Assembly (NCBI RefSeq): GCF_003336875.1
Contig: NZ_QGNJ01000019.1
Span: forward strand, 1 to 64,000
Source: Oleisolibacter albus
GTDB lineage: Bacteria; Pseudomonadota; Alphaproteobacteria; Azospirillales; Azospirillaceae
Reading direction: 5' to 3'
DNA: 64,000 bases
In this document: one piece after another, positions 27,656-53,813 of the stretch
How the letters are laid out: each line of letters starts with the position of its first letter
Position numbering within the stretch: position 1 is the stretch's first letter
Position numbers and translations under genes: made by a program
The notes under the pieces: generated by a model
What the model was told of the DNA's origin: nothing
The model's database searches: none
Seen by the model: only the letters and a program-made list of their open reading frames with translations

Positions 27656-27656
27656 C

Positions 27657-29608: not shown

Positions 29609-30084
29609 GGCAGATCTTCCTCGAAAAAGGCTTTCCGATCACTCGGGACAAAGACGTTCAGCCGGCATTCCGCCCAGACGGAATGCCCCTCGATTCGGCA
29701 GTGGAACACACCGGCCGGCCCGTCCAGCAGTTCCTGCTCCACCCGGACGGTGAGCAGATCGCCCAACGGGAACCAGGGTGACGAGGCGGTGAACCGCCGG
29801 GTTCCAACCAGCAGGCCGAGAGAAATCGGCTTGCGTTCGAGTTGACTGCGAATGCCGTCATACATGGCCACGGTCTGGGCCATGTACTCGATTCCGACCC
29901 AGGACGGGACTCCACGGCCGATCTCATAGAACAGGGAATCCTCGGCGATGCGCACTTCTGCTTCGGCCCAGCCATCGCCATAGCAACGGGCACGATCCAG
30001 CAGCAGCATCGTCCGGGCATGTGGCAGCAACATGTCCACGGGCCAGGGGATATGCCGGCCCGCCTGTGGGACAACCTCCTCCAT
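29605..30084 (-). CDS. apeP: Hot-dog fold dehydratase (ApeP-like)
   Basis: A 159-residue FabZ/FabA-like dehydratase. The catalytic His22 lies in LLPHARTMLLLD and the acidic partner Glu66 in WVGIEYMAQTVAMYDG. It removes water from 3-hydroxyacyl-ACP to form the conjugated double bond. A second dehydratase domain is fused to the AMP-ligase (39.9 kb), as in ape systems that have both I and P. The start overlaps the stop of the KS gene (TGATG). Confidence 0.87.
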   Translation of the reverse strand: MEEVVPQAGRHIPWPVDMLLPHARTMLLLDRARCYGDGWAEAEVRIAEDSLFYEIGRGVPSWVGIEYMAQTVAMYDGIRSQLERKPISLGLLVGTRRFTASSPWFPLGDLLTVRVEQELLDGPAGVFHCRIEGHSVWAECRLNVFVPSDRKAFFEEDLP

Positions 30085-31280
30085 CAGAGCCTCCCCAGCA
30101 CAAGGCTGATATTGTTGCCGCCAAAGGCACAGGCATTGACCATCACGACCCCCTGCCCCTTCCGACGCAATGTCTCGCCCCGACGAACAAGCGTGGCGCT
30201 GAGCAAACCGGGATCGACGTCGCCGTCCCAGAGATGGGGGGGCAGGAGGCCATCGACATTTTCATCCGACAAGGTCAACCAGCTGGCCGCAGCACCCAGG
30301 GCGCCGGCCGCGCCGAGCGTATGGCCCAGCTGTGGCTTTGATGAACTGCAGGGCACACCTTGGGGGAATATCCGCTGCATGGCGCGGCTCTCCATATGAT
30401 CGTTCTGTAGCGTCCCGGTGCCATGGAGATGGACATAGTCCACGGCCGTCGCCTCCAGGCCGGCTTGGCGCAGCGCCTGCCCCATGGCGGCCGCGATCCC
30501 CCGCCCGTCAGGATCGGGAGCCGTCATGGAATAGGCGTCGGAGGTACTGCCTGTGCCAAGCAGAGCCACGGCGGCGGGCTCCCGTCGCATCAGGAACAAC
30601 GCCGCCCCCTCGCCCAGGCTGGTACCATCCCGGTTTCGACTGAACGGATTGCAGATCCGGCGGGATAGAACGGACAGCGCATCGAAGCCGTTCATCGTCA
30701 GTCGGCAGAGCGTGTCCACCCCGCCGGCCAGCACCACGTCGGCCAGTCCGGTCAACAGCAGGCGGCGCCCCGCCGCCAGGGCCTGGGCCCCGGAACTGCA
30801 GGCCGTGGAGATGGTATAGGCCGGACCGGCAAGCCCCAATTGCCGGGCCGCCACCTCTGCCACGCTGCCCATCTCCTGCCGTCGGATATCATAGGCGGGT
30901 GGCAGATCGCCTTGCCGCAGCAGATGGGCAATGGCCGCTTCGCCCTCGGCAATACCAGAAGTGCTGGACCCCAGAACCACAGCGACGCGCTCCGGTCCGA
31001 CCTCGGCCACCGCCGCGTCGATCTCAGCCTGGATTTCCTGGATCACAAGCGTCATCAGCCGGCTGTTGCGGCTGGAAAAGCAATCCAGGGTCTGAGGAAG
31101 GTCCGGCAGATCCCCGGAAACGACGCCGGCCGGGATCGGCAGGTTGCTGATCATAAGATCGGGCCGCGGCACCATCCCGCCTTGCTCGCCTTGAAACAGC
31201 CCGGCGGCAACGTGTGCCTTCCCCCGTCCGACCGCGCATGCGACGCCAAGGGCGTGAAGATAAACCGGCCGCGCTGTCAC
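30084..31280 (-). CDS. apeO: Beta-ketoacyl-ACP synthase (ApeO-like elongating KS)
   Basis: A 398-residue KS with C161 in STACSSGAQ, H286 in HLHGTGT and H320 in QLGHTLGAAG. In the E. coli/Xenorhabdus pathway the O-type KS pairs with a catalytically incomplete KS-like partner (C) to elongate the polyene; that partner is encoded at the head of this operon (43603-44391). It starts at GTG 31280, overlapping the DUF3261 stop by 4 nt (GTGA). Confidence 0.9.
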   Translation of the reverse strand: MTARPVYLHALGVACAVGRGKAHVAAGLFQGEQGGMVPRPDLMISNLPIPAGVVSGDLPDLPQTLDCFSSRNSRLMTLVIQEIQAEIDAAVAEVGPERVAVVLGSSTSGIAEGEAAIAHLLRQGDLPPAYDIRRQEMGSVAEVAARQLGLAGPAYTISTACSSGAQALAAGRRLLLTGLADVVLAGGVDTLCRLTMNGFDALSVLSRRICNPFSRNRDGTSLGEGAALFLMRREPAAVALLGTGSTSDAYSMTAPDPDGRGIAAAMGQALRQAGLEATAVDYVHLHGTGTLQNDHMESRAMQRIFPQGVPCSSSKPQLGHTLGAAGALGAAASWLTLSDENVDGLLPPHLWDGDVDPGLLSATLVRRGETLRRKGQGVVMVNACAFGGNNISLVLGRL

Positions 31281-31873
31281 GACGAGGCTCCCATGACTTT
31301 TGTCCGGATGCGGAGTTGATAGGCGGGATGGACGCGGTTCACTATCAGGTCTGCCGTCGGAGTTCCCGTCCTATCTGCCGGGGGCAAGGACGTCTCGGCC
31401 AGCAGGGTGCCATCGCGATCAAACAGGCGACGCCCACCGGTTTCGGTCCGCACCAATTCCAAGCCCTGACGGGCGAAGGCAGCTCGGAGACTTGCGTCCG
31501 GCCAGAACGCCAACTGGAAGTCGGCCAACACGTGACGCGGGTCCACCGGCAGAGATTTTCCTCCCGGCACCACCACCTCAACGGTATGACCATCATGCGT
31601 GAGCGTGAACAGCGGCAGTCCCAAGGGGCTGAGGCCGGTCATCCGCAGCGTTGTCCCGGATAACTCGACCTGGAAGCGCAGAGACCGCGTCTGGTCCTGG
31701 AAAGTGCCCGTCACCAGTTGATCGAGCACCACAGGGGCACCGAAATCTGCGGGCGCCAGATCCAGGAGCAGCGGCTCCTGCGCCGCAGGAGCCTGCCCCC
31801 CCCCCCGCACACCGGAACAGGCCGCAAGCCCGGTCAGCACCAAGACCGGCAAAAGGCGAAAAACAGGACGCAT
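31277..31873 (-). CDS. DUF3261 lipoprotein (ApeN-like)
   Basis: A 198-residue predicted lipoprotein with lipobox LTGLAAC (Cys near residue 19), a Gly/Gln/Ala linker and a beta-rich mature domain ('LRMTGLSPLGLPLFTLTHDG', 'VDPRHVLADFQLAFWPDASL'). DUF3261 proteins are found almost only in aryl polyene/flexirubin clusters, consistent with a periplasmic or outer-membrane role in product placement. The ATG at 31873 overlaps the flavoenzyme stop (TGATG); a GTG three bases upstream is less likely. Confidence 0.85.
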   Translation of the reverse strand: MRPVFRLLPVLVLTGLAACSGVRGGGQAPAAQEPLLLDLAPADFGAPVVLDQLVTGTFQDQTRSLRFQVELSGTTLRMTGLSPLGLPLFTLTHDGHTVEVVVPGGKSLPVDPRHVLADFQLAFWPDASLRAAFARQGLELVRTETGGRRLFDRDGTLLAETSLPPADRTGTPTADLIVNRVHPAYQLRIRTKVMGASS

Positions 31874-33111
31874 CACGCAGCCCTGGCCAGTTCCGCGATC
31901 GCGGCCAGGCGGGGGCCGGGACGGGCGACCAATGGATTGTCCTCATCCCAGGCGTACCCCGCCAGCACGGCACAGATCATCTGACGGATTTTTGGTTCCG
32001 CGCGGCCGGCGTGGAAAATGATGTCCTGCAGATCGCCTGTGTACCATGCCTCGACAAAATGGCGGAATGTCTCGATTCCCCTGGCCAGCGGAGCGGCAAA
32101 AGCCGTCTGCCAGTCGACCGTCTCTCCCCGCAGATGGCGGTCCAGAGCCGCCGCGGCCAGAAACGAGGATTTCAGGGCGATGGTCACGCCCGAGGAAAAG
32201 ATCGGGTCCAGAAACTCTCCGGCATTGCCCAGCAGGGCAAAGCCTCCGCCCCAAAGCCTGGACACCTTGGCGGAGTATCCAGTCAACCGGCGGATGGGAA
32301 GTGGCCACTCCGCACCGGCAAGCAACCGGGACAGGTTGGGCACGCTGGAGACCCAATAACGGAGCTTGGCCGCATCCTCGCCGCCGGGGACCCCTTGCAC
32401 CAATTCTGCTTCGCCAACGACCCCGAGTGAGCAGGTTCCATCGGCAAACGGGATCAGCCAGAACCAGACATCCCGGTGCTGGGGGTGAACTGTAATCAGG
32501 ATTTTGTCACGGTCGAAATTCCGATCGTCGATATGATCGACCACATGGGTGAACAATGCCTGGCGCACGGGCCAATCGGATGGCCGGTCCAGATCAAGGA
32601 GCTTCGGCAACACCCGGCCGAAGCCACTGGCATCCAGGCAGAAGCGGGCCCTGACCACCCCGCTCCCCTCCTGCCCTTCAAAGCCCAGGGCCACACCGTC
32701 GGCCGTTTCCGTAAAGCTGGTAATCGTCTGCCCGTAACGGATGTCGGCCCCCTGGCGTGCCGCCTCATCCGCGAGGATCTTGTCAAAATGAGCCCGTTTG
32801 ACCTGATAGGTCGTCGCCCACCCCGACGACAGCTTGTCCGAGAAGTCGAAGGCGAAATACCGGCCATCGGCTTCAAACGCCGCGCCATTCTTGTGCTGGA
32901 AGCCGGCCTGCTGCACGGCCGGCAGCATCCCTGCTTCTTCAAGATAGGCCATGGACTGCGGCAGCAGACTCTCCCCGATGGAGAAGCGTGGAAAGCTCTC
33001 CCGCTCCAGCACCGTGACGCGATGGCCATATCGGATCAGCAATGCCGCTGCGACGGCGCCGGCCGGACCAGCCCCGATGATTGCCACATCCGTCTTCAAC
33101 TCATTGGACAT
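31873..33111 (-). CDS. FAD-dependent oxidoreductase, halogenase-like
   Basis: A 412-residue flavoprotein. The FAD-binding IGAGPAG is at 12-18, followed by ERESFPRFSIGESLLP, CLDASGFGR and GNAGEFLDPIFSSGV. It contains WFWLIP at 216-221, which fits the WxWxIP signature of flavin-dependent halogenases that keeps them from acting as monooxygenases. The catalytic Lys could not be placed with certainty: K74 lies in the right region, but the spacing differs. Related genes occur in xanthomonadin/flexirubin clusters where the product is halogenated. Halogenation of the aryl head is therefore a reasonable inference, not shown. Confidence 0.82.
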   Translation of the reverse strand: MSNELKTDVAIIGAGPAGAVAAALLIRYGHRVTVLERESFPRFSIGESLLPQSMAYLEEAGMLPAVQQAGFQHKNGAAFEADGRYFAFDFSDKLSSGWATTYQVKRAHFDKILADEAARQGADIRYGQTITSFTETADGVALGFEGQEGSGVVRARFCLDASGFGRVLPKLLDLDRPSDWPVRQALFTHVVDHIDDRNFDRDKILITVHPQHRDVWFWLIPFADGTCSLGVVGEAELVQGVPGGEDAAKLRYWVSSVPNLSRLLAGAEWPLPIRRLTGYSAKVSRLWGGGFALLGNAGEFLDPIFSSGVTIALKSSFLAAAALDRHLRGETVDWQTAFAAPLARGIETFRHFVEAWYTGDLQDIIFHAGRAEPKIRQMICAVLAGYAWDEDNPLVARPGPRLAAIAELARAA

Positions 33112-35503
33112 GCCGAGTCTCCGTATGCTTGTCGCGCAGAAATGCGGTCCGGCGCGCCAGAGGTGATGCCAGGAAGGACGAAATAATGCCAATCGCCACC
33201 GTCTGGCCGAAGGCACTGATGGCGGCCGTAGCGGAGAGGCCGAGCAAGCCGAAGGACAGCAGAGTGCTGATCACCGATGTCGCGATTGCGACCAGCGTCC
33301 CTCGATCCGCTCCCTCTGATTCACGGAAGAACAGGCCGTAATCGACCCCCATGCCCAGCACGAGAAGCAGTGCCATGGCATGGAACAAACTGAATCCGAT
33401 GCCCAGCAAGCCGAAGGCGCCCAGGCAGACAAGAGCGGCAATACAGGGGACGGCCATGACCTGCGCCCCACCCAGCGCGCCATACCGATGGCAGAGCAAG
33501 AGGGCGACACAGAGATAGGAGCCCAGGATCAGCCACACCGCCCGAACGCGATAACGCGCAAACATGGCCGACGCATCGGCGGCCGGGTCAACCAGTTCGA
33601 CACCGTCCGGCAGAGACACTTCTGAGAAGAGATCCTTTTTCTTCAAACCCCGCAGTAGGACCGCTGAAGCGACCCAACCCGCATCGCTGCTGGAGGGACC
33701 AAGCCATAGATGGCGATAGGGCGCCGATGCCGCATCCGCCAGCCAGGACTGCAAGGTGAAGGGTTCGGCTTCGGCCAGCGCCTGCTCGTAGGAGTGCAGC
33801 AGAGACGGATCCAGGCCGATACGGGCCGTGATTCGGCTCAGCGCGCCATCCGGACCGACAGCGGCACGCCGCAACAGGGCGATGGATTGATCTTGCCGTT
33901 CCGGCGATGGCACAAGGCTGGACAAGGCCTGATAGCCGGCGATGTCCCCCGACCTTTGGAGCGGATCCAGCAGATCCCGCAGCCGTTCCTCCCGCTGCAA
34001 CACCTCCCCGGCATTTCGCCCGCGGACCAGCAGGAAAACACCCTCTCCGGCATCCCCCAACGCGCGACGCGCCGCCGTCTCATCCGAGACGACAGCCTTG
34101 TCCCGGGCCTGGAACTGGCGGACATCGTCATTGCTGTGGAGACGGAGCGCGGCAGCAGTGGAGGCCAGCGCAATCAGAACCAACGCCACAGGAGCAGCGC
34201 GCCGGGTTGCAGGACGATCCCAGAACGCCAGCCAACGATCAGCGGCTTTGGCAACCACGCCACCGGCGCGTCCCGCGCGACGGGTGAACAGCGGATACCA
34301 CCACAGCGTCGTGAGAAAAGCGGCCGTCAACCCGACCATGGAGAAGATGGCAATCTGGATCAGGCCGGGGAAACCGGAAAGGATCAAGCCCATGAAACCG
34401 AGCAGGGTGGTCAGTAGCCCCAAAGTCAAACTGGGCAGCACGTGCCGCATCGCTTCGTCCGGGCACCATTCCCCTCCCGGATCGAAACGGGTGGCGAAGA
34501 AATGAAAGGTAAAATCTTCCGCCGTACCAACCAAACTGACCGCGAACACGACAGTGAACAGGTGAACGCTGCCAAAAAGCCAGAGTGTGGCAGCAAATCC
34601 AACCAGTGTGCCCACGCCGATGGCCACCAGGCTGAAAATCAGGGGCCGAGCCGAACGGAAGGTCAGAATCAGAAGACCAACAACGGCGAGAAGAGAGGCG
34701 GTGCCGATGACCGAGACCTCTTCGCGGGCACTTGCGGTCCCTGCCGCCGCATGGGGGAGGACACCGGCGATGTGCAACCTCATGGCCGGGCTTCTGGTGG
34801 CCAGGGCCTGTCTGACCGCTTGCAACTGCGGCATCAGACTGTCCTGGTAGGGCACAGAGAAGGGGGACCGCGTAAGGTCGAACTGGAGCGGCACGAAGGC
34901 CTCGCCCCCCTGTATGAGCACAGGCTGGCCGTCGACAAGCATCCACTCCACGCCGGCTGGCGGCCGGTTCACCGACTGGAGGAAATCAGTGACCAGCAGC
35001 AACGGGTCCTGCCGGATCAGGGTGGAACTGGCCAGCGATCCCGGCAGGTAATATCGGCGAACGATTGCCGCCTCAAGCGCGCCTGCCGGATCGTCGCCCG
35101 ACAGGCGTTGGCGTAGTCTTTCGCTGACCAGACCGAACGGCGCCTGCCGGTAGAAAGTGGCCAGGGCCTGAGCGGCCGCGATGTCCAGACTGGGCGCCGC
35201 CGTCAACAGACCAGAAGCCAACAGGCTGTCCCGCACTTCGCGGCTGGCAGTCGCAGCGTGAGCCGGATCAACCGCCCCTCCGACCACGACCAGCAGACGG
35301 CGTTCCAGCCGTTCCTGGGCCAGCGAGGCCGATGCTTCCGATACCGGGTCACGCTCCGTCGCGGGGAGAAGTGCCGTCAACTCGCCGTTGAGGACATCAC
35401 CCGCCGCCAGACGGAGCACAATCCAGACTCCCAGCACCAGCACGAGGGCGGCCCAGCCCACTCCGGCCAGGGTGCCATATCGGGTGTATTGGTCCTTACT
35501 CAC
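33101..35503 (-). CDS. MMPL/RND-type exporter (ApeM-like)
   Basis: An 800-residue membrane protein with the two-repeat MMPL layout. It has one N-terminal helix, a large periplasmic loop (about 35-255), five helices ('SVIGTASLLAVVGLLILTFR' onward to 420), a second loop (about 455-650) and a final helix bundle. The bundle includes 'MGVDYGLFFRESEGADRGTL', the DYG-type motif of this class. It exports pigment precursors or lipids across the inner membrane. It starts at GTG 35503 inside the LolA-like stop region and overlaps the flavoenzyme by 11 bp. Confidence 0.88.
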   Translation of the reverse strand: MSKDQYTRYGTLAGVGWAALVLVLGVWIVLRLAAGDVLNGELTALLPATERDPVSEASASLAQERLERRLLVVVGGAVDPAHAATASREVRDSLLASGLLTAAPSLDIAAAQALATFYRQAPFGLVSERLRQRLSGDDPAGALEAAIVRRYYLPGSLASSTLIRQDPLLLVTDFLQSVNRPPAGVEWMLVDGQPVLIQGGEAFVPLQFDLTRSPFSVPYQDSLMPQLQAVRQALATRSPAMRLHIAGVLPHAAAGTASAREEVSVIGTASLLAVVGLLILTFRSARPLIFSLVAIGVGTLVGFAATLWLFGSVHLFTVVFAVSLVGTAEDFTFHFFATRFDPGGEWCPDEAMRHVLPSLTLGLLTTLLGFMGLILSGFPGLIQIAIFSMVGLTAAFLTTLWWYPLFTRRAGRAGGVVAKAADRWLAFWDRPATRRAAPVALVLIALASTAAALRLHSNDDVRQFQARDKAVVSDETAARRALGDAGEGVFLLVRGRNAGEVLQREERLRDLLDPLQRSGDIAGYQALSSLVPSPERQDQSIALLRRAAVGPDGALSRITARIGLDPSLLHSYEQALAEAEPFTLQSWLADAASAPYRHLWLGPSSSDAGWVASAVLLRGLKKKDLFSEVSLPDGVELVDPAADASAMFARYRVRAVWLILGSYLCVALLLCHRYGALGGAQVMAVPCIAALVCLGAFGLLGIGFSLFHAMALLLVLGMGVDYGLFFRESEGADRGTLVAIATSVISTLLSFGLLGLSATAAISAFGQTVAIGIISSFLASPLARRTAFLRDKHTETRHVQ

Positions 35504-36134
35504 CGAACTGCGCCCGCTCCGCTGCGGCCAGACCGGCAGGATCGATAGCCTGGGCGCTGAAGCTGATGGTCGTCTGGTCGCCAGACGCCTCTTCGATCCG
35601 GACCGTATCGATCTCGGTCGCCCCCGTCACCTCAACGATGCGGATCGCTTTGGCGAAAGTCGGGTCGCGGGGGCTGAGTTTGAGCGTCCAGCGGCCAGTC
35701 TGCTGTATCAGTTCCGCCTCGAACATATCGGTGAAGCGGCTTAAATTTCCTGTCGGCAGGTCAAGAAACAACGGCAGAAAAGCCCGGAAGACGGGCTGTG
35801 CCATGGCCGGCATCTCTTGCGCAGGCATCCCCTCTTCCTGTTCCGTCACCCGCCCAGGCGTGATCGCGACCGTGACGGCGAACGGATCGTCAAGAATCCA
35901 GAGAATGCCAACACCAGGCGCGACAATCAGACGTCCGGCGGAGACCAGCGGTTGGCTCATCGCCTGCGCCATCCGCACCTGGTGGAAGCGGGCGCGCAGA
36001 ACACCGTCGTGAACCGGCGCCGGCAGCGCGCGCAAGGCAGCCTCGCCGTGCAGGATCTCCGCCTGGGTCGCCGCACCGGCCGACAAGGGGGCGAGCACAG
36101 ACAGGAAGAGCAGGATACCGGCCAGTTTCATCAT
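35496..36134 (-). CDS. LolA-like periplasmic lipid carrier (ApeL-like)
   Basis: A 212-residue exported protein with signal peptide (MMKLAGILLFLSVLAPLSAG, cleavage near AGA|AT). The mature region folds like an outer-membrane lipoprotein carrier (LolA/LolB half-barrel): 'VLRARFHQVRMAQAMSQPLV', 'VGILWILDDPFAVTVAITPG', 'LFLDLPTGNLSRFTDMFEAE'. Such genes accompany MMPL exporters in polyene clusters and probably ferry the hydrophobic product to the outer membrane. Start ATG 36134, or 36131. Confidence 0.82.
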   Translation of the reverse strand: MMKLAGILLFLSVLAPLSAGAATQAEILHGEAALRALPAPVHDGVLRARFHQVRMAQAMSQPLVSAGRLIVAPGVGILWILDDPFAVTVAITPGRVTEQEEGMPAQEMPAMAQPVFRAFLPLFLDLPTGNLSRFTDMFEAELIQQTGRWTLKLSPRDPTFAKAIRIVEVTGATEIDTVRIEEASGDQTTISFSAQAIDPAGLAAAERAQFGE

Positions 36135-36135
36135 C

Positions 36136-36546
36136 TCAACACCCCAACCGGCTCGCCAGGGCATCGACGGGACCAAACTGCATTTCCCGGGTGCTCATAT
36201 CCACGGCCACCTGGACCGTGTAGCCCTTGGTCAGCCGTTCGCCGGTCGCGGCATCCCTGATCTCATATTCGATGCGCAATCGCGGATCATAGTCAGTAAT
36301 ACGTGCCAGAATCCGCAGCTTCTGACCATAGCGGGCAGGCCTCGGATAGCGTATCCACAACTCGACGACCGGCCATCCATAGCCGGATGCCTTCATCTGC
36401 GGATAATCATAATTGATACTTTCCAGAAGGGCACATCGCGCGATCTCAAAATATTTAACGTAGTGACCGTGCCAAACGATCTCCATGACATCAATATCGT
36501 GGAAGGGAACCGTGAGTTCGATTTCGTTTTCGGGAAATTTTGACAT
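36136..36546 (-). CDS. 4HBT-type acyl-CoA/ACP thioesterase (ApeK-like)
   Basis: A 136-residue single hot-dog thioesterase of the YbgC/4-hydroxybenzoyl-CoA thioesterase type. The catalytic Asp lies in FHDIDVMEIVWHGHYVKYFE and a conserved 'YRIEYEIRD'-like strand follows. It likely releases or edits chains from the ACPs. It ends two bases before the LolA-like start. Confidence 0.9.
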   Translation of the reverse strand: MSKFPENEIELTVPFHDIDVMEIVWHGHYVKYFEIARCALLESINYDYPQMKASGYGWPVVELWIRYPRPARYGQKLRILARITDYDPRLRIEYEIRDAATGERLTKGYTVQVAVDMSTREMQFGPVDALASRLGC

Positions 36547-36555
36547 AGCGACGCC

Positions 36556-38127
36556 TTAGTGCTGGAGCGGCCAAGCCGCAATCTGAATAGACGCCACCAC
36601 GGCGCGCAGATCCGCCTCCAGTGGCCGATCTTCCAGCAGAGAGGGGGACAAGCCCCGAACGACTTGGGCCAATGCGCCGATCGCCCCTCTCCGCCAGCGT
36701 TCCTCGCCTCCAGCCCGCCCTCGAAGCTCGAGAGCCTGTACCAGCGCCAAGAGATGGGCGGCGGCCACCTGTTCGGTCAATTGCAGCACGCGCAGACAGT
36801 CGCGGGCGGCAATCGTCCCCATACTGACCTTGTCCTGGTTGTGGCTTTCGGTCGAGCGGGAGAACGCGCTTGCCGGCATGGTCAATTTCAAGGCTTCAGC
36901 CGTCCAGGCGGACATCCCGATCTGCACAGCCTTGAAGCCGTGATTAATGGCGAGGCGAGCCCCCGTCGCCCCTGTCAGTCCGGGGGGAAGACCGTTGTTC
37001 ATCTTCGGATCGACAAGCAGCGCCATCTGCCGGTCCATGAGATCGGCCAGATTGGCAACACAGGTCTTCAGGCCATCCATAGCGAAGGCGATATGCCCAC
37101 CATAGAAATGGCCGCCGTGCAGGACGGCCTTGGCCTCGCCATCAATGATCGGGTTGTCGTTGGCGCTGTTCAGTTCGGTTTCAATGAACTGGCGCAGCCA
37201 CGGAAGGCTGTCACGCAGAACACCGATGATATGGGGAGCGCAACGGATGGAATAGCGATCCTGCAGCCGGCTGGGCGCCATATAGGCACCCGCCTGGTCC
37301 AGATCCGCGCGGATCCAGGCTGCGACCTCGTTCTGACCGGGATGCGGCTTTACGGCAAAAAGCCGGGCATTGAAATGCTCGGGGTTGCCTCCCAGGGCCA
37401 GACTCGCCATGGCAGTCAATCGGGAACAGAGCCGCGTCAGATACTCCGCCCGGACGAACGCTTCGCAGGCCAGACCCGTCATCACGGCTGTGCCGTTCAT
37501 GAGAGCCAGCCCTTCCTTGGGCCGCATCTCCAATGGCGGCAGCCCCAACTCGGCCAGCACCTCGGCAGCCGGCCGGATATGCTCGCCCACGCGGGCAGAC
37601 CGTTCTCCGACCAGGAGCGCAGCCACATAGGATAAGGGGGTCAGGTCACCGCTCGCTCCAACCGATCCCTCCTCGGGGATCAGGGGCTGCACATCCAGGT
37701 TCAGCAGATCCACCAAGCGCTGCAGCAGCACATGGCGAACGCCGGAATGGCCAAGCGACAAAGAAGCGAGGCGGGCAACCATCACCGCACGGGTAAGGTG
37801 CGGGGCCAGATGCGCGCCAAGACCGCACCCATGGAAACGGGACAGCTGTAGAGGCAGGGCAGCAACCAGGTCCCGGGGGATACGGGTGGTGCAGTTGTCG
37901 CCATAACCGGTGGTCACGCCATAGATCTCGCCATCCTGCGCCACCAGCTGATCAAGATAGGCGGCACTGGCCTCGATACGATGCTGCACGTCCGGGGCCG
38001 GGTCCAAAGCCACAGGCACATGCGAACGAGCGATCGCAACAACCTCTTCAATGTTGAGACGGCCACCGCCAATAAGAATGGGGGCAGGACAGCCAATATT
38101 CCGGGATGCAGTCTGCACAGTATTCAT
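36556..38127 (-). CDS. MIO-dependent aromatic amino acid ammonia-lyase (HAL/PAL/TAL family)
   Basis: A 523-residue enzyme, full family length. The MIO cofactor forms from Ala158-Ser159-Gly160 in GSVGASGDLTPLSY. Catalytic Tyr76 lies in TTGYGD, and there is an EFNSANDNPI-like ELNSANDNPIID plus 'SHNQDKVSMGTIAARD'. It removes ammonia from an aromatic amino acid to give an arylacrylate, which would prime the polyene. The selectivity pair is F98-H99, unlike the H-L of TAL, F-L of PAL and S-H of HAL. The ATG at 38127 lies in the same frame as the upstream acyltransferase with no stop between them. Confidence 0.92.
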   Translation of the reverse strand: MNTVQTASRNIGCPAPILIGGGRLNIEEVVAIARSHVPVALDPAPDVQHRIEASAAYLDQLVAQDGEIYGVTTGYGDNCTTRIPRDLVAALPLQLSRFHGCGLGAHLAPHLTRAVMVARLASLSLGHSGVRHVLLQRLVDLLNLDVQPLIPEEGSVGASGDLTPLSYVAALLVGERSARVGEHIRPAAEVLAELGLPPLEMRPKEGLALMNGTAVMTGLACEAFVRAEYLTRLCSRLTAMASLALGGNPEHFNARLFAVKPHPGQNEVAAWIRADLDQAGAYMAPSRLQDRYSIRCAPHIIGVLRDSLPWLRQFIETELNSANDNPIIDGEAKAVLHGGHFYGGHIAFAMDGLKTCVANLADLMDRQMALLVDPKMNNGLPPGLTGATGARLAINHGFKAVQIGMSAWTAEALKLTMPASAFSRSTESHNQDKVSMGTIAARDCLRVLQLTEQVAAAHLLALVQALELRGRAGGEERWRRGAIGALAQVVRGLSPSLLEDRPLEADLRAVVASIQIAAWPLQH

Positions 38128-39147
38128 TATCAGCTTTCGCCTTGTTTTTTTTATATTCTGGCCATGAACCAAATCAACGCTGGCTGGCGCCCAGAAATCA
38201 AAAAAGTTAAACCATTGGAGCGGATAGCGCAGGGCATAGTATCCAAGCCGGGCAGCATAGCTGGCGATTGTCTTTCGCAGGTTCTCCTGCCGATTCCGGC
38301 GCGATTGTTGCAATCCTTCGGCATCGAGTTCCTCAAAGATGATGCGATGGCGCCGCCCCTCCCTGACACAGAAGACCAGCAGCACCGGGCATGCCATCAG
38401 CGATGCCAGAATAAACGGCCCCTCGGGAAATGCCGCATCGGCTCCCAGGAACGGCACGGCGCATGTGCGCCGACCGCCACTCGCGGGGGTCCGGTCCCCC
38501 ACAATGACCACCAGCTCGCCACGATCCACGCGCTCCTTCAAGAGGATCGCCGTATCAACCCCGAATGATGAGGTCTGGATCATATTGAGGGCCGCCGAGG
38601 GATTGGCCTGGGCGAGCAGCCGGTTGAAACCGGCGGCATGTGCCGTATGCACCACCACGTTGATCTTCAGCTGCTGGTGCAGGCTGCCAAGAGCGCGGCA
38701 GAGCTCAAGGTTACCGAGATGGCTGCCGATCATCACACCGCCACGCCCCTCGGCCAGGACCCGGTCGAGGAGGTCGCGATTGTCGTAATCGACATCCTGC
38801 GGCCGAATATCTCCGGTCCAACTCGCCACCTTATCCAGGATGGCGGAGCCGAAGCTCATATAATGGCGGAAGCTGTAGAACAGGTTCGGGCGGCTGCCCA
38901 GGGCATGGCGGCCCTCCGGGTAGGCCCAGACCCGGTCCAGAAAGGAGCGCGAAGCATACCGGGTTCGACCATCCGACAGGAAGAAGTAAGTGATCACCGG
39001 AACCAGGAACAGGCCGAAGCCAATCCGGCCGAACAGCCGATAGCACTGCAGCATGAACCACAGACCGGCGAAGACACCCCGTTCCCGCATTCCAGACCAA
39101 TGCACGCCGGTGTCGGGCCGGACCGGGTTCCTTTCGAGGGTCGACAT
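38128..39147 (-). CDS. LpxL/HtrB-like acyltransferase, in frame with the ammonia-lyase
   Basis: About 340 residues of a lipid A-type acyltransferase: one N-terminal hydrophobic anchor (about 23-56), the H-x4-E motif HLGNLE (H143, E148), and a domain end 'YPLQWFNFFDFWAPA'. No stop codon separates it from the ammonia-lyase, so as written the two form one 863-residue polypeptide (36556-39147). Removing one A from the A8 run at 38145-38152 gives a stop at 38132-38130, two bases before the lyase ATG, which would make two normal genes. A GTG at 39153 is an alternative start. Confidence 0.85.
38145..38152 (-). other. A8 homopolymer between acyltransferase and ammonia-lyase domains
   Basis: Eight consecutive A on the coding strand lie at the boundary of two complete domains, in otherwise GC-rich sequence. 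In the zero frame the reading continues into the lyase. With seven A the acyltransferase ends at a TGA four bases before the lyase start codon begins. This is a slip-prone site, either biological (transcriptional slippage) or a sequencing artefact. Confidence 0.8.
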
Positions 39148-39149
39148 GC

Positions 39150-39896
39150 TCACGCCACCTTGCCGCGGCGGAGGAAGTGCCCGGTCGCCAGTCGCCCGGC
39201 CATTCCCAGAAGCAGTCGCGTGTGCATGGCGCTGATGCTGACATTGTCCTTCAGCATGCGGAAATTCGAGATCCCGCCTTGCGGATAGATGACCGCGGTC
39301 CGGATGAACCGGAAGGGCACACCCAGCCAGTGCAGGCGGACCAGGATTTCGATATCGAAATCCATGCGCATGCCGAGCCAGCGGCTTTCCGCCGCCCGCA
39401 ATGTCGCTGCGATCGGATAAACCCGGAAACCGCACATGGGATCGGCGATGTCCAGAGACAGGGTCTCCGCCCAGACGCAGACGCGGCTAATCACGCGGCC
39501 GACGCGCCGCCCAAGCGGAGCGGTGGCATCGAACTGCGGCACACCGGCGATCAGTGCATCGGGGTTGCTCCGGGCCGCCTCGATGAAGCGGGGAATGTCA
39601 GCAATGTCATGCTGGCCGTCGGCATCGATCTGCAGCGCATGACTATGGCCGGCCATCGCCGCGGCGCGCAGTCCATCGATGACGGCAGCGCCTTTGCCGC
39701 CATTCTCATGGCGACGGACCACCGTGACGAACGCATGCTCAGCCCCGCTGCGGGCCAGGATTGCGGCATCCTCCGCTGTGTTGCCGTCATCCACCAGGAA
39801 GACCGGCAGCCCATAGGCCCCCAGGGAATTCATCAACCGCACCGCGGTAGCCGCATGCCGGTAGACTGGAACGATCAGGCAGAGTTGCGGAATCAT
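39150..39896 (-). CDS. Family 2 glycosyltransferase
   Basis: A 248-residue GT-A enzyme with DDG at about 36-38, 'ENGGKGAAVIDGL' and the metal site in 'ALQIDADGQHDIADI', then 'DPMCGFRVYPIAATL'. It resembles dolichol-phosphate-mannose-type glycosyltransferases. In polyene clusters such an enzyme may glycosylate a lipid or the pigment head. The start overlaps the AMP-ligase stop by 4 nt (ATGA). Confidence 0.88.
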   Translation of the reverse strand: MIPQLCLIVPVYRHAATAVRLMNSLGAYGLPVFLVDDGNTAEDAAILARSGAEHAFVTVVRRHENGGKGAAVIDGLRAAAMAGHSHALQIDADGQHDIADIPRFIEAARSNPDALIAGVPQFDATAPLGRRVGRVISRVCVWAETLSLDIADPMCGFRVYPIAATLRAAESRWLGMRMDFDIEILVRLHWLGVPFRFIRTAVIYPQGGISNFRMLKDNVSISAMHTRLLLGMAGRLATGHFLRRGKVA

Positions 39897-41635
39897 GCCT
39901 CTCCTCCCCCCTCCCCGCCGAAGAGCAAGCGGCCGGACGCATGCCGCCCGGAAGGACTGGAAATATCGAACTGGACCTTGTCACTGTCCGGTTTAAAGGA
40001 CAGGACCAGATCCAGTTCCGCTGCGGGCCGGACGACGCGGAAGAACTTCAGGGCCTCGACCCGCAGAACCGCGCCGCCCTTGCCGCCGTCGGCCATGGCC
40101 ATTGCAACGGCCCAGCCAAGCTGGGCGACACCTGGCAGGATGGGCGTCCCATCGAAGTGCCCGTCGAAATAGCACAGCGACGGCGGAACGCGGAGCCGTG
40201 CCGCTATGGAATCCTCGCCCCTGCTCACCGACAGCGTCTCCGGCCGGGTTCCGTGGCCGCAGGCCGGCTGGAAAAGAGCCTCGAGTTGCTCAGTCGTTAT
40301 CTTGCCCTGACTGTTTTCGGGCAGGGTGCGCACGAAGCGCCAATAGCGTGGCACGGCCGAGCGCGGCAGAACCTCGCGCAGGTCTTTCGCCATGGCCGCA
40401 ATGATGGTGCGGCGGCCACGCTCACAGAGGTCGGTCCATCCGTCGGACGATGGCACCACGACGGCAGCAAGGGCCGTCCGCCGGCTCCGAGACAGCGGGA
40501 AGACGCGCACCCCCTGCACCCCGGCCATGACCGACAGGGCCTGCTCGACCTCGTTCAGGCTGACCCGGACCTCGTCGATCTTCACGATACGATCCGCTCG
40601 CCCCAAGAGACTGAAGCTGCCGTCGGCGGCCGGCCCATCAATGACATCGGCGCAGACCATTTCCCCGGCACAGGCCTGATGCGGAGAGTTGAGGCGAAGT
40701 TGGCCGGTTTCCCCATCCCGACGGACATGCACGCCCGAAAAGGGTGTCCAGCGGCTGGGCCGGGACGGATCGGACACTCGCCGGTAGGCGATGCCTCCCG
40801 TCTCGGTGCTTCCGAACACCTCGAACAGGCTCGCTCTCGTTTGGTTGTTCCAGGCCGCCGCCACGGCGGGGTCAAGGGGGCCACCGGAGGAGAAGGCGGC
40901 GGCCAGACCGGAGCCGAGTGCCGCCAAATCCAGCGCCGGCTGGGCCCGCTTCAGAAAGGTGGGGGAAGAAACGAAAACCGTACCACCGTCGCGTTCCAGC
41001 GCCTGGCACAGCTCATGCGGATGCAGAAGCAGGCCGGTCACAATCGTCCGCCCAGCCGCAAGCGGCCAGACGAGGCGGAACAGGAAGCCGTAGATATGAT
41101 GGCACGGCACGGAACCGGCAACGAGTGCAGGGTCGGCCGCGTCTCGGATGAACGTCGCCTCCAATGTCGCCACTTCCGTGGCAAGCCGGATCAGCGGCCG
41201 CGTCACAGGCACAGGCCCGTTGGTGGAACCCGAGGTGTGGAACGTCACGAAAACACGATCGCCGTCCAGAACCGCGGGAGGCAAGGCCTCTGCATCGGCA
41301 CCGGGAGACAGCGGATCGCGGCCGGCCAGATCGGCCTGGTCTGAAAACACCATGTCTGCCGTTGCGGCCAAGGCCTTCAGATGGGCGGAAGCCAGACTCG
41401 CCGGGAGCAGGATCTCACAGCCAGCCCGGGCGGCAGCGGCAAAGGCCACAGCCATCCGCGCCTCATCGGACAATGCCAAAAGGCAGCGCCTGGTCCCGCA
41501 ACGGGCCAGTTCGGCGGCCAGGGACAGGGCGGCCTTCTGGAACCAGGAGCGGCTGCGCGGCCCGTCCCGAAGCAGCAGGGCGGGTCGATCCCGCTCGCAG
41601 GAGAGCGGCAACAGCACGGACAGCAGGTCAATCAT
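39893..41635 (-). CDS. AMP-ligase fused to hot-dog dehydratase (ApeH-ApeI-like)
   Basis: A 580-residue bifunctional protein. Residues 1-455 are an acyl-AMP ligase with TSGSTNG at 134-140, 'EVFGSTETGG' and the catalytic Lys in QGKIT (K445). Residues about 465-580 are a FabA/FabZ-like domain with HFDGTPILPG at 493-502. In the E. coli pathway these activities are on separate proteins (H and I); here they are joined. It would activate the aryl acid and load it on ACP, and dehydrate during elongation. Start at 41635 (ATGA overlap); an N-terminal extension to 41734 is rejected. Confidence 0.88.
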   Translation of the reverse strand: MIDLLSVLLPLSCERDRPALLLRDGPRSRSWFQKAALSLAAELARCGTRRCLLALSDEARMAVAFAAAARAGCEILLPASLASAHLKALAATADMVFSDQADLAGRDPLSPGADAEALPPAVLDGDRVFVTFHTSGSTNGPVPVTRPLIRLATEVATLEATFIRDAADPALVAGSVPCHHIYGFLFRLVWPLAAGRTIVTGLLLHPHELCQALERDGGTVFVSSPTFLKRAQPALDLAALGSGLAAAFSSGGPLDPAVAAAWNNQTRASLFEVFGSTETGGIAYRRVSDPSRPSRWTPFSGVHVRRDGETGQLRLNSPHQACAGEMVCADVIDGPAADGSFSLLGRADRIVKIDEVRVSLNEVEQALSVMAGVQGVRVFPLSRSRRTALAAVVVPSSDGWTDLCERGRRTIIAAMAKDLREVLPRSAVPRYWRFVRTLPENSQGKITTEQLEALFQPACGHGTRPETLSVSRGEDSIAARLRVPPSLCYFDGHFDGTPILPGVAQLGWAVAMAMADGGKGGAVLRVEALKFFRVVRPAAELDLVLSFKPDSDKVQFDISSPSGRHASGRLLFGGEGGGEA

Positions 41636-42234
41636 ACCGGAACCCGCCTCATCATGAGCCGCCGCGCCAGATATTCCCCGCCGAGAAGGCAGCCGATGGC
41701 GATGTAGGAAATCAGCCCGTTGTAGAGGGCCCACAGTTCCAGATCGTCAGAGAGCACGGTGTAAAGGGCGATTGCGCCATTGGTAACGAAGAACAGGCAC
41801 CAGATCTTGGTGACTTTTCGTGTCCATGCCACGCCGGCTGGAGACAGATCCGGCTCGCGCAGGCGGGCCAGACGCTCGATCACAGGGGGAGGACGCAGCA
41901 ATGAAAGTCCGAATATGATCAGCATGCCAGTATTCACCGCCACGGGATAATACAGTAGGAAGTCCGGCGTTCCCGAGAGCAGAGCAGCCCCGGGAAACCC
42001 CAGGGCAGCAATCGCAGACGCCCAGCCCATCCGTTGGCTCGAGCGATCTCCGAAGGGCAGGAACAGTCGCAGCGCCAGCAGGACCAGCAGCATCAGGGAC
42101 AGCGGCCGCCAGCCGCCATGGGCAATCCCCAGATAGACAAGCAGCGGATACGAAACGGCTGCCAAGCCGATCAAGGCAGCCAGAACCGCCTTTCGGCCAG
42201 GGGCGATGCGCGGCTGTCGGCGCAGGAGGACCAT
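41632..42234 (-). CDS. COG4648-type membrane protein (ApeG-like)
   Basis: A 200-residue protein with about six hydrophobic helices ('AVLAALIGLAAVSYPLLVYL' first; 'IWCLFFVTNGAIALYTVLSD' later), a family regularly found in aryl polyene clusters next to the ACPs. GAGG seven bases before ATG 42234 sets the start. The precise function is unknown; a role in membrane assembly of the pathway is inferred from context. Confidence 0.85.
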   Translation of the reverse strand: MVLLRRQPRIAPGRKAVLAALIGLAAVSYPLLVYLGIAHGGWRPLSLMLLVLLALRLFLPFGDRSSQRMGWASAIAALGFPGAALLSGTPDFLLYYPVAVNTGMLIIFGLSLLRPPPVIERLARLREPDLSPAGVAWTRKVTKIWCLFFVTNGAIALYTVLSDDLELWALYNGLISYIAIGCLLGGEYLARRLMMRRVPV

Positions 42235-42241
42235 GACTGCC

Positions 42242-42502
42242 TCAGGCCGCCACATGCTCGTTCAATACGCGGTGCAGGACATCGACGACGTCCCCCACGG
42301 ACTGGATGCGCTTGAACGTCAGAGGGTCGATCTTGCGCCCGGTAATGACCCGAAGCTCCGCCAACAGGTCAACGGCATCAATACTGTCGATCTTCAGATC
42401 GGAATACAGATTGGCTTGCGGCACCACCAGGGCCTCGTCCAGCTCGAAATGTTCCACAAGCAACGCCTTCAGCGTCGTGAAAATCTCTTCCTTACTCTGC
42501 AT
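42242..42502 (-). CDS. apeF: Acyl carrier protein (ApeF-like)
   Basis: An 86-residue ACP with the phosphopantetheine Ser40 in LKIDSIDAVDLL. Acidic, four-helix size. GGGGGAAG before ATG 42502 decides the start over an upstream TTG. One of two ACPs in the cluster and a likely substrate of the PPTase at the end of the operon. Confidence 0.92.
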   Translation of the reverse strand: MQSKEEIFTTLKALLVEHFELDEALVVPQANLYSDLKIDSIDAVDLLAELRVITGRKIDPLTFKRIQSVGDVVDVLHRVLNEHVAA

Positions 42503-42571
42503 GTCTTCCCCCAACCATTTGTAATCCGGCAGGCCCGACTTGGCGCTGGCCCAACCGGCCCCTTTCAGCCA

Positions 42572-42829
42572 TCACGCACTTTGAAACTGGCGGACCAGTT
42601 CCGCCAGCGTGGAGACAGACCGGAAATAGCCCCGGATCTCGTCAGACCGGCCATCGATCTTGATGCCGTAGCGCTTCTGTAGCGCGACCCCCAACTCCAG
42701 CGCGTCGATGGAATCCAACCCCAGCCCCTCCCCGAACAGCGGCAGATCAGACCCGATGTCCGCGGGCTGGACATCCTCCAGATCAAGCGACTTGATGATC
42801 AGGAGTTTTATCTCGGCTTCCAATGACAT
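42572..42829 (-). CDS. apeE: Acyl carrier protein (ApeE-like)
   Basis: An 85-residue ACP with Ser40 in GLDSIDALELG and the family end 'YFRSVSTLAELVRQF'. If it starts at 42829 its first 47 bp overlap the PlsC gene in another frame. An upstream ATG at 42850 with AAGGTGG ten bases before it would add seven residues and lengthen the overlap to 68 bp. Confidence 0.9.
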   Translation of the reverse strand: MSLEAEIKLLIIKSLDLEDVQPADIGSDLPLFGEGLGLDSIDALELGVALQKRYGIKIDGRSDEIRGYFRSVSTLAELVRQFQSA

Positions 42830-43616
42830 TTCCAGACTCGTCTCTTCCATCCGAATGAACCACCTTTGTTTCCAGAAGACTCTGTAAAAGCCTGTTTACG
42901 CGTCTATTGTTACGGCTGAGTGAATCCCCTTCAACGATTATAGATTCGGGGGACACATCATCGCCAACCTGCAACGTCCAATGCGGCTTCCGCAGCGGGA
43001 TCTCGTACCAGGATTTGCATTTGGTCAGCGTTGTCGGTTCCACATGGATGGACACCGGGGTGAAGGCCTTGCAACTGGCCGCTATGATCGACGCGGCTCC
43101 CCGCTTCAATTGCAACGGCCGTCCCGGCTCGGTCCGGGTGCCTTCAGGGAAGATCACCAACGAGTGACCGGCCTGCAGCGCCGCCACGCAGTGCTCCACG
43201 AGTTGCAGGGGATCATCGTTCGGGATGTACCCGGTCGCCCACATGACTCCCATGACGAAAGGGTTTCGCCAATGGCTGCTCTTTACCACGCAGAGCGTGG
43301 AGGGCATCTGCGAAATGATGAAAACCACGTCGATCAGTGACGGGTGGTTGGCCACAACCAGCAGGCCGGTCCGCTTCAACCGGCCGGCATGCTCCCAGCG
43401 GTAAGACAGCACGCCGAGCGTTTTCATCAGCCAGATAAACAAACCGAAGCACCGCCCCACCACGATCTGACAACGACGCTGGGCCTTGGCCCGGTCCGCA
43501 CTGCCGAGGTGGATGGCCGGAAACAGAACGAGGCCAATGAACAGCCCGCCGACACCGAAGGTGGCGAAGCTCATCACCGTTCCGCAGAGACGCCAGATCT
43601 GGTCAAGCCGGGCCAT
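42783..43616 (-). CDS. PlsC-type 1-acyl-glycerol-3-phosphate acyltransferase (ApeD-like)
   Basis: A 277-residue acyltransferase with an N-terminal hydrophobic segment (about 10-32), NHPSLID (H-x4-D) and FPEGTR. Such enzymes transfer acyl groups to lysophosphatidate-like acceptors. In the cluster it probably builds the lipid that anchors the aryl polyene in the outer membrane. It overlaps the upstream KS-like gene by 14 bp. Confidence 0.88.
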   Translation of the reverse strand: MARLDQIWRLCGTVMSFATFGVGGLFIGLVLFPAIHLGSADRAKAQRRCQIVVGRCFGLFIWLMKTLGVLSYRWEHAGRLKRTGLLVVANHPSLIDVVFIISQMPSTLCVVKSSHWRNPFVMGVMWATGYIPNDDPLQLVEHCVAALQAGHSLVIFPEGTRTEPGRPLQLKRGAASIIAASCKAFTPVSIHVEPTTLTKCKSWYEIPLRKPHWTLQVGDDVSPESIIVEGDSLSRNNRRVNRLLQSLLETKVVHSDGRDESGNVIGSRDKTPDHQVA

Positions 43617-44391
43617 GTTGGCTCCATGTCCATTCGAATCGGGCGCCCCGGCGGCTGAGATGCGTTGACCGCCCCAGCAGCAGCGGCACCAGATCCTGTA
43701 CACACCAGCGTGTCGTCTCCTCGGAAAACCCGTCGCCGGCACGCCACCCCAGATGCACGGTCGTCCCCCCGGCCGCCATGTCGGCCCGGGTCAGACGCAA
43801 CCCGAGCGCGCCACCACCGGCCGGCGGCCATGGATCACCGCCATAGCAATCGGGAAGCGGCTCTTCGGCATAGACCATCAGCACGTCCTCGGCCTCCCCC
43901 GCCTGCAGCAGGGACCAGCTTTCCAGGACGGCGAACTCAAGGCTGTCCGGCCCCGCCGCGATAGCGGTCGCATGACCGTCGAGACCATTCGTGATCGAGC
44001 AGAGAGCCGCGCCCGTATTATGAACGGACATGCTGAAAGCTGCAGGCGAAAGCAACTCTCCTTTCGCCAGGGCGCAGAGAAGAGCATAGGTGACGTCATA
44101 CTCGCCGAAGCGCGAGGCGAAAACCAGATGAGGCCGCCCTGAATTGCCTTGCAACAGACTGCGGGCCACACTCAGGGCCAGTCGAGACAAGCGGCTATAG
44201 CGCCTGTACTGCAGAGGCGGCAAGAAATCAAGCTTAGGCGACCAGGACGGATCAGGTACGCGCGCGCCGTCTAACCACTCCGACCACTCCGTCTGGGTGC
44301 TGATATTGCCAAGGCATGCCGACCATTGCTGAACTTTCAGCAAAATCTCTGGCAGTACGCTTGAATTTTTCTTTACCCCAGCCCACTGCAT
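43603..44391 (-). CDS. Beta-ketoacyl synthase-like chain-length factor (ApeC-like)
   Basis: A 262-residue truncated KS-fold protein of the type paired with ApeO ('RPHLVFASRFGEYDVTYALL', 'AAFSMSVHNTGAALCSITNG', 'VLMVYAEEPLPDCYGGDPWP'). The Cys/His/His triad is not conserved, fitting a non-catalytic chain-length partner. It is the first gene of the operon, and its upstream region (44392-44798) carries the likely promoter. Confidence 0.85.
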   Translation of the reverse strand: MQWAGVKKNSSVLPEILLKVQQWSACLGNISTQTEWSEWLDGARVPDPSWSPKLDFLPPLQYRRYSRLSRLALSVARSLLQGNSGRPHLVFASRFGEYDVTYALLCALAKGELLSPAAFSMSVHNTGAALCSITNGLDGHATAIAAGPDSLEFAVLESWSLLQAGEAEDVLMVYAEEPLPDCYGGDPWPPAGGGALGLRLTRADMAAGGTTVHLGWRAGDGFSEETTRWCVQDLVPLLLGRSTHLSRRGARFEWTWSQHGPA

Positions 44392-44798
44392 CTTTCGTAA
44401 TTGCCCCCCGCCCGGATGGGTGAGATAACACTATCCGACCGGTTAATGTCAATGCACAGACTTGAAGCCTTTGGCTGTATAATTGGACTGAAAATACCGC
44501 ATCTACCGAGTTCTCAAAGAGAGTCGCAGCATGCCCAATTTTGAGCAAAAATTAAAAAAAACTTCTCAAGACAAAGCAGTTCGCATAGAGGGCTTGACTG
44601 GAGGCGAGCACTACGATCGAAAGAACGCACACTCACCTATTGAAAGGCACACCAATCATATAAATTGCGTCACGGATAAGTATTTCAGTTTTCCCTTCCG
44701 TCCAGACCCATCTGCACAGGCCGGCGGACTGCCCCGGGGCCGTCAGCACGAGATGGACGGGATGCGTCGCCCCTCGGCACCGGGGACGGCCTGACGTG
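44392..44798. other. Intergenic region, 407 bp, upstream of the pigment operon
   Basis: A/T-rich gap between the divergent KS-like gene and the epimerase gene. It holds the candidate operon promoter (44424-44453), an A run AAAAATTAAAAAAAACTTC near 44546, and presumably the epimerase promoter. A short rightward reading frame at 44531-44794 has no ribosome binding site or recognisable domain and is not called. Confidence 0.5.
44424..44453 (-). promoter_or_regulatory. Candidate promoter of the pigment operon
   Basis: On the minus strand TTGACA (44453-44448) is followed after 18 nt by GTTATC (44429-44424), about 33 bp before the KS-like gene start. The -35 box is perfect and the -10 is poor. The intergenic region is A/T rich. 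Confidence 0.35.
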
Positions 44799-45719
44799 AT
44801 GGATTGCTGGCTGGTGACCGGTGGCGCGGGCTTTATCGGCTCCCACCTGGTGGACGCGCTTTTGGCCCGCGGGGACAGGGTCCGCATTCTCGACGACCTG
44901 AGCAGCGCTTGCCGAGACAATGTGCCTGCAGCGGCGGAGTTTCTGCTCGGCGATGTGACGGATTCCGCCTTGGTCCAACGGGCCATGGCCGGCGTCAGCG
45001 GTTGCTTCCATCTTGCGGCAATCGCGTCGGTCGAGCGCGGGCTTGAAGATTGGCTCGGCACCCATCGCACCAACCTGACTGGAACAGTCACGGTTCTCGA
45101 TGCGGCCCGCGGCACTCAATGTCCTGTGGTCTACGCCTCATCGGCTGCCATATATGGCGCCAATCAGGATTTACCCCTGAACGAACAATCCCCTGCGGAA
45201 CCGCTTTCCGCCTATGGCGTTGACAAGCTTTCTTGCGAGTTTTACGCCAAAGTCGCGGCGCAGATACACGGCGTACCCAGCGCCGGGTTGCGCTTTTTCA
45301 ATGTCTATGGCCCGCGGCAGAATCCCGCTTCGCCCTACGCCGGGGTCATCGCGCGTTTCGTTCGTCAGGCGCTCTGCGGTCGCCCGCTGTATATAAATGG
45401 AGATGGCGGTGCGACGCGTGATTTCATCCATGTGCATGACGCTGTTGATCATCTGCTGGCAGCCATGACACGAGTTCGGACCGGCCAGGCCCGTGGCGAG
45501 GTCTTCAATGTTTGCACCGGGCACTCCACCAGCGTGCTGGCACTGGCAGCAATGATCCGAACTATCGCCGGCAGCAACAGCCCGATCATGCACCAGCCGG
45601 AGCGGGCCGGCGACATCCGCCATTCCCTGGGGGATCCCGCGCGAGCCATCCGCCTCCTGGGGGTTGGAACCCGGACCAGTCTGGAGAGCGGGCTGCAAAC
45701 CATGCTGCGGCCCTCCTGA
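44799..45719 (+). CDS. NAD-dependent NDP-sugar epimerase (GalE/WbpP-like SDR)
   Basis: A 306-residue extended SDR with GGAGFIGSH at 9-17, catalytic 'ASSAAIYG' plus 'YGVDKLSCE' (YxxxK), and 'LRFFNVYGPRQNP'. This matches UDP-glucose/UDP-GlcNAc 4-epimerase-like enzymes. It is divergent from the pigment operon; whether it supplies a sugar for the cluster's glycosyltransferase is unknown. ATG 44799, just after an in-frame GTG. Confidence 0.88.
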   Translation: MDCWLVTGGAGFIGSHLVDALLARGDRVRILDDLSSACRDNVPAAAEFLLGDVTDSALVQRAMAGVSGCFHLAAIASVERGLEDWLGTHRTNLTGTVTVLDAARGTQCPVVYASSAAIYGANQDLPLNEQSPAEPLSAYGVDKLSCEFYAKVAAQIHGVPSAGLRFFNVYGPRQNPASPYAGVIARFVRQALCGRPLYINGDGGATRDFIHVHDAVDHLLAAMTRVRTGQARGEVFNVCTGHSTSVLALAAMIRTIAGSNSPIMHQPERAGDIRHSLGDPARAIRLLGVGTRTSLESGLQTMLRPS

Positions 45720-45965
45720 TTGTCCCGCACGGAGCGTCCCACTGAAGGGGCGTGCGGTGTGAGTTCTCCAGAACGGTTTCTGCAGTGACCGGCCCTGGTG
45801 TGCGATGTGACCGGGGTCGAGGTCTGGCTCGGCAAAAGGCGGAGCGCGTCCAAAGCGGACACCTTCCGCAAAGCACCGGCGCCGGACGGTCGCCAACAGC
45901 GCACGCGGCCGGTCAAAGCAGCATTTCCAGAGGTCAAACGACAGCAGCAGACCTGATGACAGTCG

Positions 45966-46496
45966 TTACGCCGCCCACTCCTTGCGCAGAATGGCGTACT
46001 GCATCGTATTCTCGTAGATTGGCACACCCTGATCGTCATTGACGAATGACACGAACTCCCGGAACAGCCCCTCCCGTCGCATCCCCAACCGCTCGCAGAG
46101 GCGCTGCGAGGCAAGATTGTTGTCCTCCACATAGGCGTAGAGCCGCCGGGCCTCTTTCACCTTGAACAAGTAGTCGAACAGCGCCCGCGCCGCTTCGGAG
46201 GCATAGCCGCCACCGCTGAAATTGACGTTGAAATTCCAACCAACCGAATATGTGTCAGGAGGCTCGGGGAGACAAAGCAGGTCGCCGATCAGCTTACCAG
46301 AGCTTCGCAGGCATACGGCGACATGCTCATCGCTGCCGCTGCGCGCCTCGACTTCGGCTTGAGCGGCATCGAGATCGGCAAGTTCGAGAGACGCAAAGCA
46401 ACTCGATCGGGGCTGATGCAAATAGGCAAACAGATCAGCAGCATCACCCTGCCGGAAATTTCGCAGAATCAGCCGCTCTGTTACAACGACGTTCAC
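45966..46496 (-). CDS. GNAT family N-acetyltransferase (RimJ/RimL type)
   Basis: A 176-residue acetyltransferase: 'TERLILRNFRQGDAADLFAY', 'GWNFNVNFSGGGYASEAARA' (acetyl-CoA loop), 'NNLASQRLCERLGMRREGLF'. This is the RimJ/RimL-like ribosomal-protein acetyltransferase layout, but the substrate is undetermined. It starts at GTG 46496, with AAGGAAG five bases upstream. Confidence 0.87.
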   Translation of the reverse strand: MNVVVTERLILRNFRQGDAADLFAYLHQPRSSCFASLELADLDAAQAEVEARSGSDEHVAVCLRSSGKLIGDLLCLPEPPDTYSVGWNFNVNFSGGGYASEAARALFDYLFKVKEARRLYAYVEDNNLASQRLCERLGMRREGLFREFVSFVNDDQGVPIYENTMQYAILRKEWAA

Positions 46497-49228: not shown

Positions 49229-49235
49229 GCCGGCA

Positions 49236-53808: not shown

Positions 53809-53813
53809 GGGAC

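Follow-up and report, generated by a model that had tools for sequence, protein, structure and literature searches.

Is the run-on reading of two pigment-cluster genes a real bifunctional enzyme, or does it stem from a change at an otherwise ordinary gene junction? This question is raised by the minus strand of positions 36556-39153 in the window, a 64,000-nucleotide stretch of Oleisolibacter albus (contig NZ_QGNJ01000019.1, positions 1 to 64,000). A sequence-only reading had claimed that a lipid A-type acyltransferase (AT) and a MIO ammonia-lyase have no stop between them there and form an 863-residue fusion, and translation bore this out: 36556-39153 is free of internal stops, with AT and lyase in one open frame of 865 residues counted from a GTG at 39153, or 863 counted from an ATG at 39147. 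Pfam recognises two domains within this fused frame: Lip_A_acyltrans, spanning residues 120-270, and Lyase_aromatic, spanning residues 366-813. Its first part (38128-39153, minus strand; PF03279, E 2.4e-9) is LpxL/HtrB-like and corresponds to the acyltransferase portion of ApeJ, and its second part (36556-38127, minus strand; PF00221, E 1.3e-161), an aromatic/histidine-type lyase, has an ATG of its own at 38127-38125. In addition to the Lyase_aromatic domain, the ASG triad was found in the lyase translation (SVGASGDLT), and as regards substrate (His, Tyr or Phe), the NCBIfam lyase models listed were all under their cut-offs for this protein. The ASG motif of the lyase, SVGASGDLTPLS, is the MIO motif, and HLGNLE in AT, found by eye, fits the HX4E motif.

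The AT and lyase coding regions are separated by the adenine run that the earlier reading had placed at 38145-38152 on the coding strand. It falls in the unconserved tail of AT, and all eight A were present there on the minus strand, written as ATA AAA AAA ACA. Runs of this kind are scarce in the genome: a search of its 4.69 Mb (44 contigs) returned 15 separate A or T runs at least eight bases long (16 overlapping matches), and the window has just one other run of that length, at 44554-44561. This second run is found upstream of the first cluster gene, where the sequence is AT-rich (about 45-48% GC) and may form the gene's promoter region.

When the AT tail was reframed with seven A, it read ...GQNIKKQGES followed by TGA TAA TGA (38124-38132, minus strand, overlapping the lyase ATG), the first stop standing two bases 5' of that ATG, as had been predicted for one A fewer. 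With nine A, the AT frame continues for 32 codons and ends within the lyase gene, and so a one-base slip from the A8 frame in either direction gives a separate AT. The stop-free join is by itself weak evidence against chance, since about 22 stop-free codons would arise in a given frame roughly one third of the time (a rough estimate). The chance of a TGA-TAA pair just 5' of a start in a given unselected frame is, on a similarly rough estimate, well under 1%, and on account of these tandem stops and of the style of the cluster's other junctions, the seven-A frame appears to give the AT gene its original end.

The AT-lyase pair sits in an aryl polyene (APE) cluster some 17 kb long (26936-44391, minus strand), delimited by translations, NCBIfam and tblastn, whose contents comprise ketosynthases, ACPs, ApeG/H/I-like proteins, GT2, AT, lyase and thioesterase, as well as LolA, MMPL, an FAD enzyme, a DUF3261-type lipoprotein and a PPTase. 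It was assigned to the APE type upon finding ketosynthases, ACPs, a ketoreductase, dehydratases, an acyl-ACP synthetase, AT, a thioesterase and LolA/MMPL export together, and tblastn of relatives' open reading frames gave matches over most of 27.7-44.3 kb. The genes were identified with NCBIfam for eight proteins, and names were given partly by eye and partly via the E. coli ape table (excerpt of PMC8253772). Most other junctions of the operon had been said to share a TGA-start layout, and this proved to be the case: among the 17 other cluster junctions, a TGA end was found at 15, and at 15 (not the same set) the following gene could start no more than 15 bases away. The two exceptions in spacing flank the first ACP gene.

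The gene of the GT2 glycosyltransferase, the other half of ApeJ (39150-39896, minus strand), is set apart from AT via a GTGA overlap (39150-39153), as seen by translation, tblastn and junction checks, and its stop-to-ATG offset is +5, like that of the seven-A AT-lyase junction. We considered this split as a second frameshift and rejected it, as the overlap resembles other cluster junctions and GT2 and AT are likewise separate in 26 of the 77 scorable relatives (fused in 51; among the best 80 of at least 591 loci plus L003 and L004, described below). The two are separate in the alphaproteobacterial loci L032, L033 and L051 and fused in L004, of the same class; as far as the sequences tell, split versus fused GT2-AT is a natural alternative within APE clusters.

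The junction was aligned with that of close relatives, as the sequence-only reading had recommended, using 82 loci: the best 80 of at least 591 in named genomes, together with L003 from the same genus and L004 from the same class. Within this set, AT and lyase were separate in 80 loci and fused in none, the other two (L052 and L106) being unscorable for want of an AT match. The best matched pieces were 29-56% identical for AT and 52-81% identical for the lyase, the latter figure being 52-68% for the 80 named-genome loci taken alone. Among the 80 split loci, 75 have a lyase-frame ATG, GTG or TTG no more than 20 bases from the AT stop. An A run of this length was absent from the AT tail position in all 82; the longest A run near the junction measured 2-6 bases in 79 of them and 7, 7 and 8 bases in three Photobacterium loci, in which the A7-A8 runs are found where the lyase begins and its gene is separate from that of AT. 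Lyase and thioesterase occupied separate frames in all 77 relatives scored for them (78/78 with the window). Left out of the count were L005-L031, 27 loci that showed one gene only when scored inside flanks of ~1.5 kb or less (16 without lyase, 11 without AT), and L112-L119, lyase relatives at 33-35% identity.

In a phylum-wide sample, which may duplicate species of the named-genome set, 41 of 397 other genomes had a match at E 1e-100 or better, and none of these 41 matches covers both domains stop-free, the two that cover both (in G486 and G392) doing so with internal stops. All nine loci opened from this sample were split, and the remaining 32 were assessed from the match table only. Plasmid records matched another part of the window, 45500-64000, nine of the 35 being from Azospirillum, in keeping with an alphaproteobacterium near that genus. 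Megablast of 28000-44000 against plasmid records gave no match, and among the plasmid protein matches (20 of 870 listed), the annotated ones covering most of the query show lyase and acyltransferase as separate features. Among titles and abstract openings on APE or flexirubin together with ammonia-lyase, none mentions an AT-lyase fusion, which is not proof that none has been published. To judge by the loci sampled, the AT-lyase fusion is not conserved.

At the level of the order, two of 82 genomes matched at E 1e-90 or better, namely this genome and G004. The latter, of the same genus and with a lyase about 80% identical, is the sole further species of the order found to carry this enzyme. The junction in G004 (locus L003, G004:C264:15351-19931) reads TGA-CC-ATG, its +5 stop-to-start offset being equal to that of TGA-TA-ATG in the seven-A window, and so the spacing foreseen for seven A was found in the closest relative. 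Translation examined by eye indicated that the APE cluster of G004 is a relic, in which the start of a ketosynthase-like protein is joined to the last ~55 AT residues, the lyase frame is open and the thioesterase is cut short. Because AT there is a relic, G004 is a good guide to where the lyase starts and a less reliable one to the end of AT, and its junction may have drifted. The last AT residues that can be aligned with G004 precede the A8 position, and neither domain is interrupted elsewhere.

Taken together, these data make it highly probable that one A was added at an ordinary APE junction, a real indel and a consensus error being counted here as one. A +1 length change is the simplest explanation because none of the 82 relatives (the best 80 of at least 591, plus two) is fused or carries the run. 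The ancestral state would have been an ordinary junction, with AT ending in TGA two bases 5' of the lyase ATG; a gain of one base in the A run of the unconserved AT tail would then cause the AT stop to be missed and the frame to be read in phase into the lyase. The extra A would have arisen by replication slippage in the strain or species as a recent, lineage-specific and nearly neutral change. Such a plain indel was absent from the three options of the sequence-only reading (fusion, slippage or error), and we think it the most likely; of those three, error is retained as a sub-case, while the comparison, with 0 of the same 82 relatives fused or bearing the run, tells against fusion and slippage as functional features. 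We infer the direction of the change, its neutrality and its protein products. If the eight A are real, the cell would make an AT-lyase fusion of about 95 kDa, and some separate lyase as well, provided that ribosomes still start at the lyase ATG. The nearest AAGG lies 12 bases from this ATG (by eye), and with only so distant a motif the separate lyase would perhaps be poorly made when not coupled to a nearby AT stop. The loss of function from the fusion would probably be small, since both enzymes' motifs are kept and the change falls in an unconserved tail.

Overall, we give a real, recent and nearly neutral +1 indel by replication slippage somewhat better than an even chance, and favour it over a consensus error at the homopolymer, a possible but less probable sub-case in which the true sequence would have seven A, with AT and lyase as ordinary tightly spaced genes. 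An error would agree with the closest relative G004 and the rest of the cluster, both of which match the seven-A layout, and with the lack of any fusion among the 82 relatives (the best 80 of at least 591, plus L003 and L004), but the wider assembly argues against it. Coding frames were scored on either side of homopolymer runs in 400 kb of the genome plus the window (464 kb, about 10% of the assembly), which contained 240 runs at least six bases long, 104 of them scorable: the frame was kept at 80, the strand changed at 10, and the frame changed on the same strand at 14. All 14 had an upstream TGA stop within 75 bases and a new-frame ATG or GTG within 91 bases, and they look like ordinary gene boundaries because a stop and a start are nearby, although allowing an ATG or GTG as far as 91 bases away makes this a loose criterion; a frame break lacking a nearby stop and start was found at 0 of the 104. 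Same-strand frame changes were seen at 109 of 2,920 random positions, 35 of 485 runs of five and 14 of 104 long runs, and the excess near runs presumably stems from gene boundaries rich in G or C. The A8 site was unscorable at 180-base flanks, and at 600-base flanks both sides favour one and the same reading frame, as expected where no stop intervenes. Thus, the data do not show homopolymer errors to be frequent in this assembly, the run check limiting the general rate and not this one site. A G11 tract in the same cluster sits in an open lipoprotein frame, which likewise limits the general error rate. Frame transitions that are unclustered probably reflect indel mutation or sequencing error, and indel mutation is likelier where they lie close to the 3' end of a gene than elsewhere (excerpt of PMC3711429).

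A selected fusion, in which the lyase is tethered to the membrane-associated AT as a real bifunctional enzyme and maintained as such, is in our view very improbable, even though the frame is open, the motifs of both enzymes are present, and APE clusters do join neighbours, GT2 and AT being fused in 51 of 77 scorable loci (among the best 80 of at least 591, plus two). Against it stand the relatives (80 split, two unscorable and none fused of the 82 drawn in this way) and the tandem stops held in the seven-A frame. The timing of the two steps argues against it as well, the ApeJ-type step being late whereas the lyase presumably provides an early precursor in the APE pathway. In the pathway proposed for these pigments, an ApeJ-type enzyme joins the finished polyene to a membrane anchor as a late step (excerpt of PMC8253772). 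Programmed slippage, by which polymerase or ribosome would slip on A8 and yield a mixture of fused and separate products, can claim the rarity of A8 in the genome (15 runs), a length that is the lower limit for E. coli RNA polymerase, whose slippage is undetectable on fewer than eight A (excerpt of PMC6260861), and the precedent of a human gene with an eight-A run, about a tenth of whose product carries an extra A (excerpt of PMC1088944). However, in a large share of bacterial genomes selection against A/T runs becomes evident at nine (same excerpt), a length above A8, and with eight as the E. coli lower limit and nine as the selection threshold, the run is borderline for slippage. Moreover, the run is absent at this place in the 82 relatives (the best 80 of at least 591, plus two), among which no conserved A/T run was found at the frame transition, and the RNA fold downstream is ordinary, with z of -1.06 and -0.18 against shuffles. 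RNA structure as a frameshift stimulator was rejected, the fold being about equal to that of shuffles, and Rfam at gathering scores gave no match in the window. The support for programmed slippage thus ends with the open frame and the run itself, and we consider it very improbable. Equally far from likely is a length-variable switch with eight real A, in which seven A would give separate AT and lyase and eight A a membrane-tethered fusion, the strain varying its supply of pigment precursor through slippage in replication or of the polymerase.

The +1 indel that we prefer resembles the GeneTack singleton frame transitions in being a single-genome change near a gene's 3' end, but those break a gene, whereas the change in the window joins two (excerpt of PMC3711429). 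As for the cluster itself, the APE cluster of E. coli CFT073 resembles it in having a GT2 and a lipid A-type AT beside ACPs, a thioesterase and a LolA-like protein, together with an RND/MMPL transporter, a DUF3261 protein and ketosynthases (excerpt of PMC8253772). There, ApeJ is a single GT/AT gene, whereas in the window GT2 stands apart from AT, whose frame continues into the lyase; a text search of that paper on the CFT073 cluster did not find the term 'ammonia lyase'. Lyase-bearing APE clusters of Shewanella, Vibrio, Photobacterium and the Burkholderia group, as well as those of Rhodobiaceae MAG UBA4490 and Rhizobium sp. Q54, have AT followed by lyase as in the window, but unlike the window they keep the two apart, by a difference of frame or by a stop, wherever this could be scored. 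Should the eight A be real, two genes with a tight stop-start junction would have been joined by a one-base change that leaves the conserved cores of both enzymes intact. Caution is warranted above all, as automatic annotation would give an 863-residue bifunctional enzyme that is found in no scorable relative (the best 80 of at least 591, plus two), and an entry of this kind could mislead analyses of domain architecture or pathway fusion.

Elsewhere in the cluster, an FAD-dependent enzyme (31873-33216) is encoded between the MMPL transporter and lipoprotein genes, its best NCBIfam match, below the cut-off, being the CmlS halogenase. The DUF3261-type lipoprotein gene (31277-31876) contains the G11 tract at 31796-31806 (minus strand), located by eye just past the lipobox. 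The frame around this tract is open and opens with a lipobox-bearing signal sequence (also by eye), and the tract could be length-variable.
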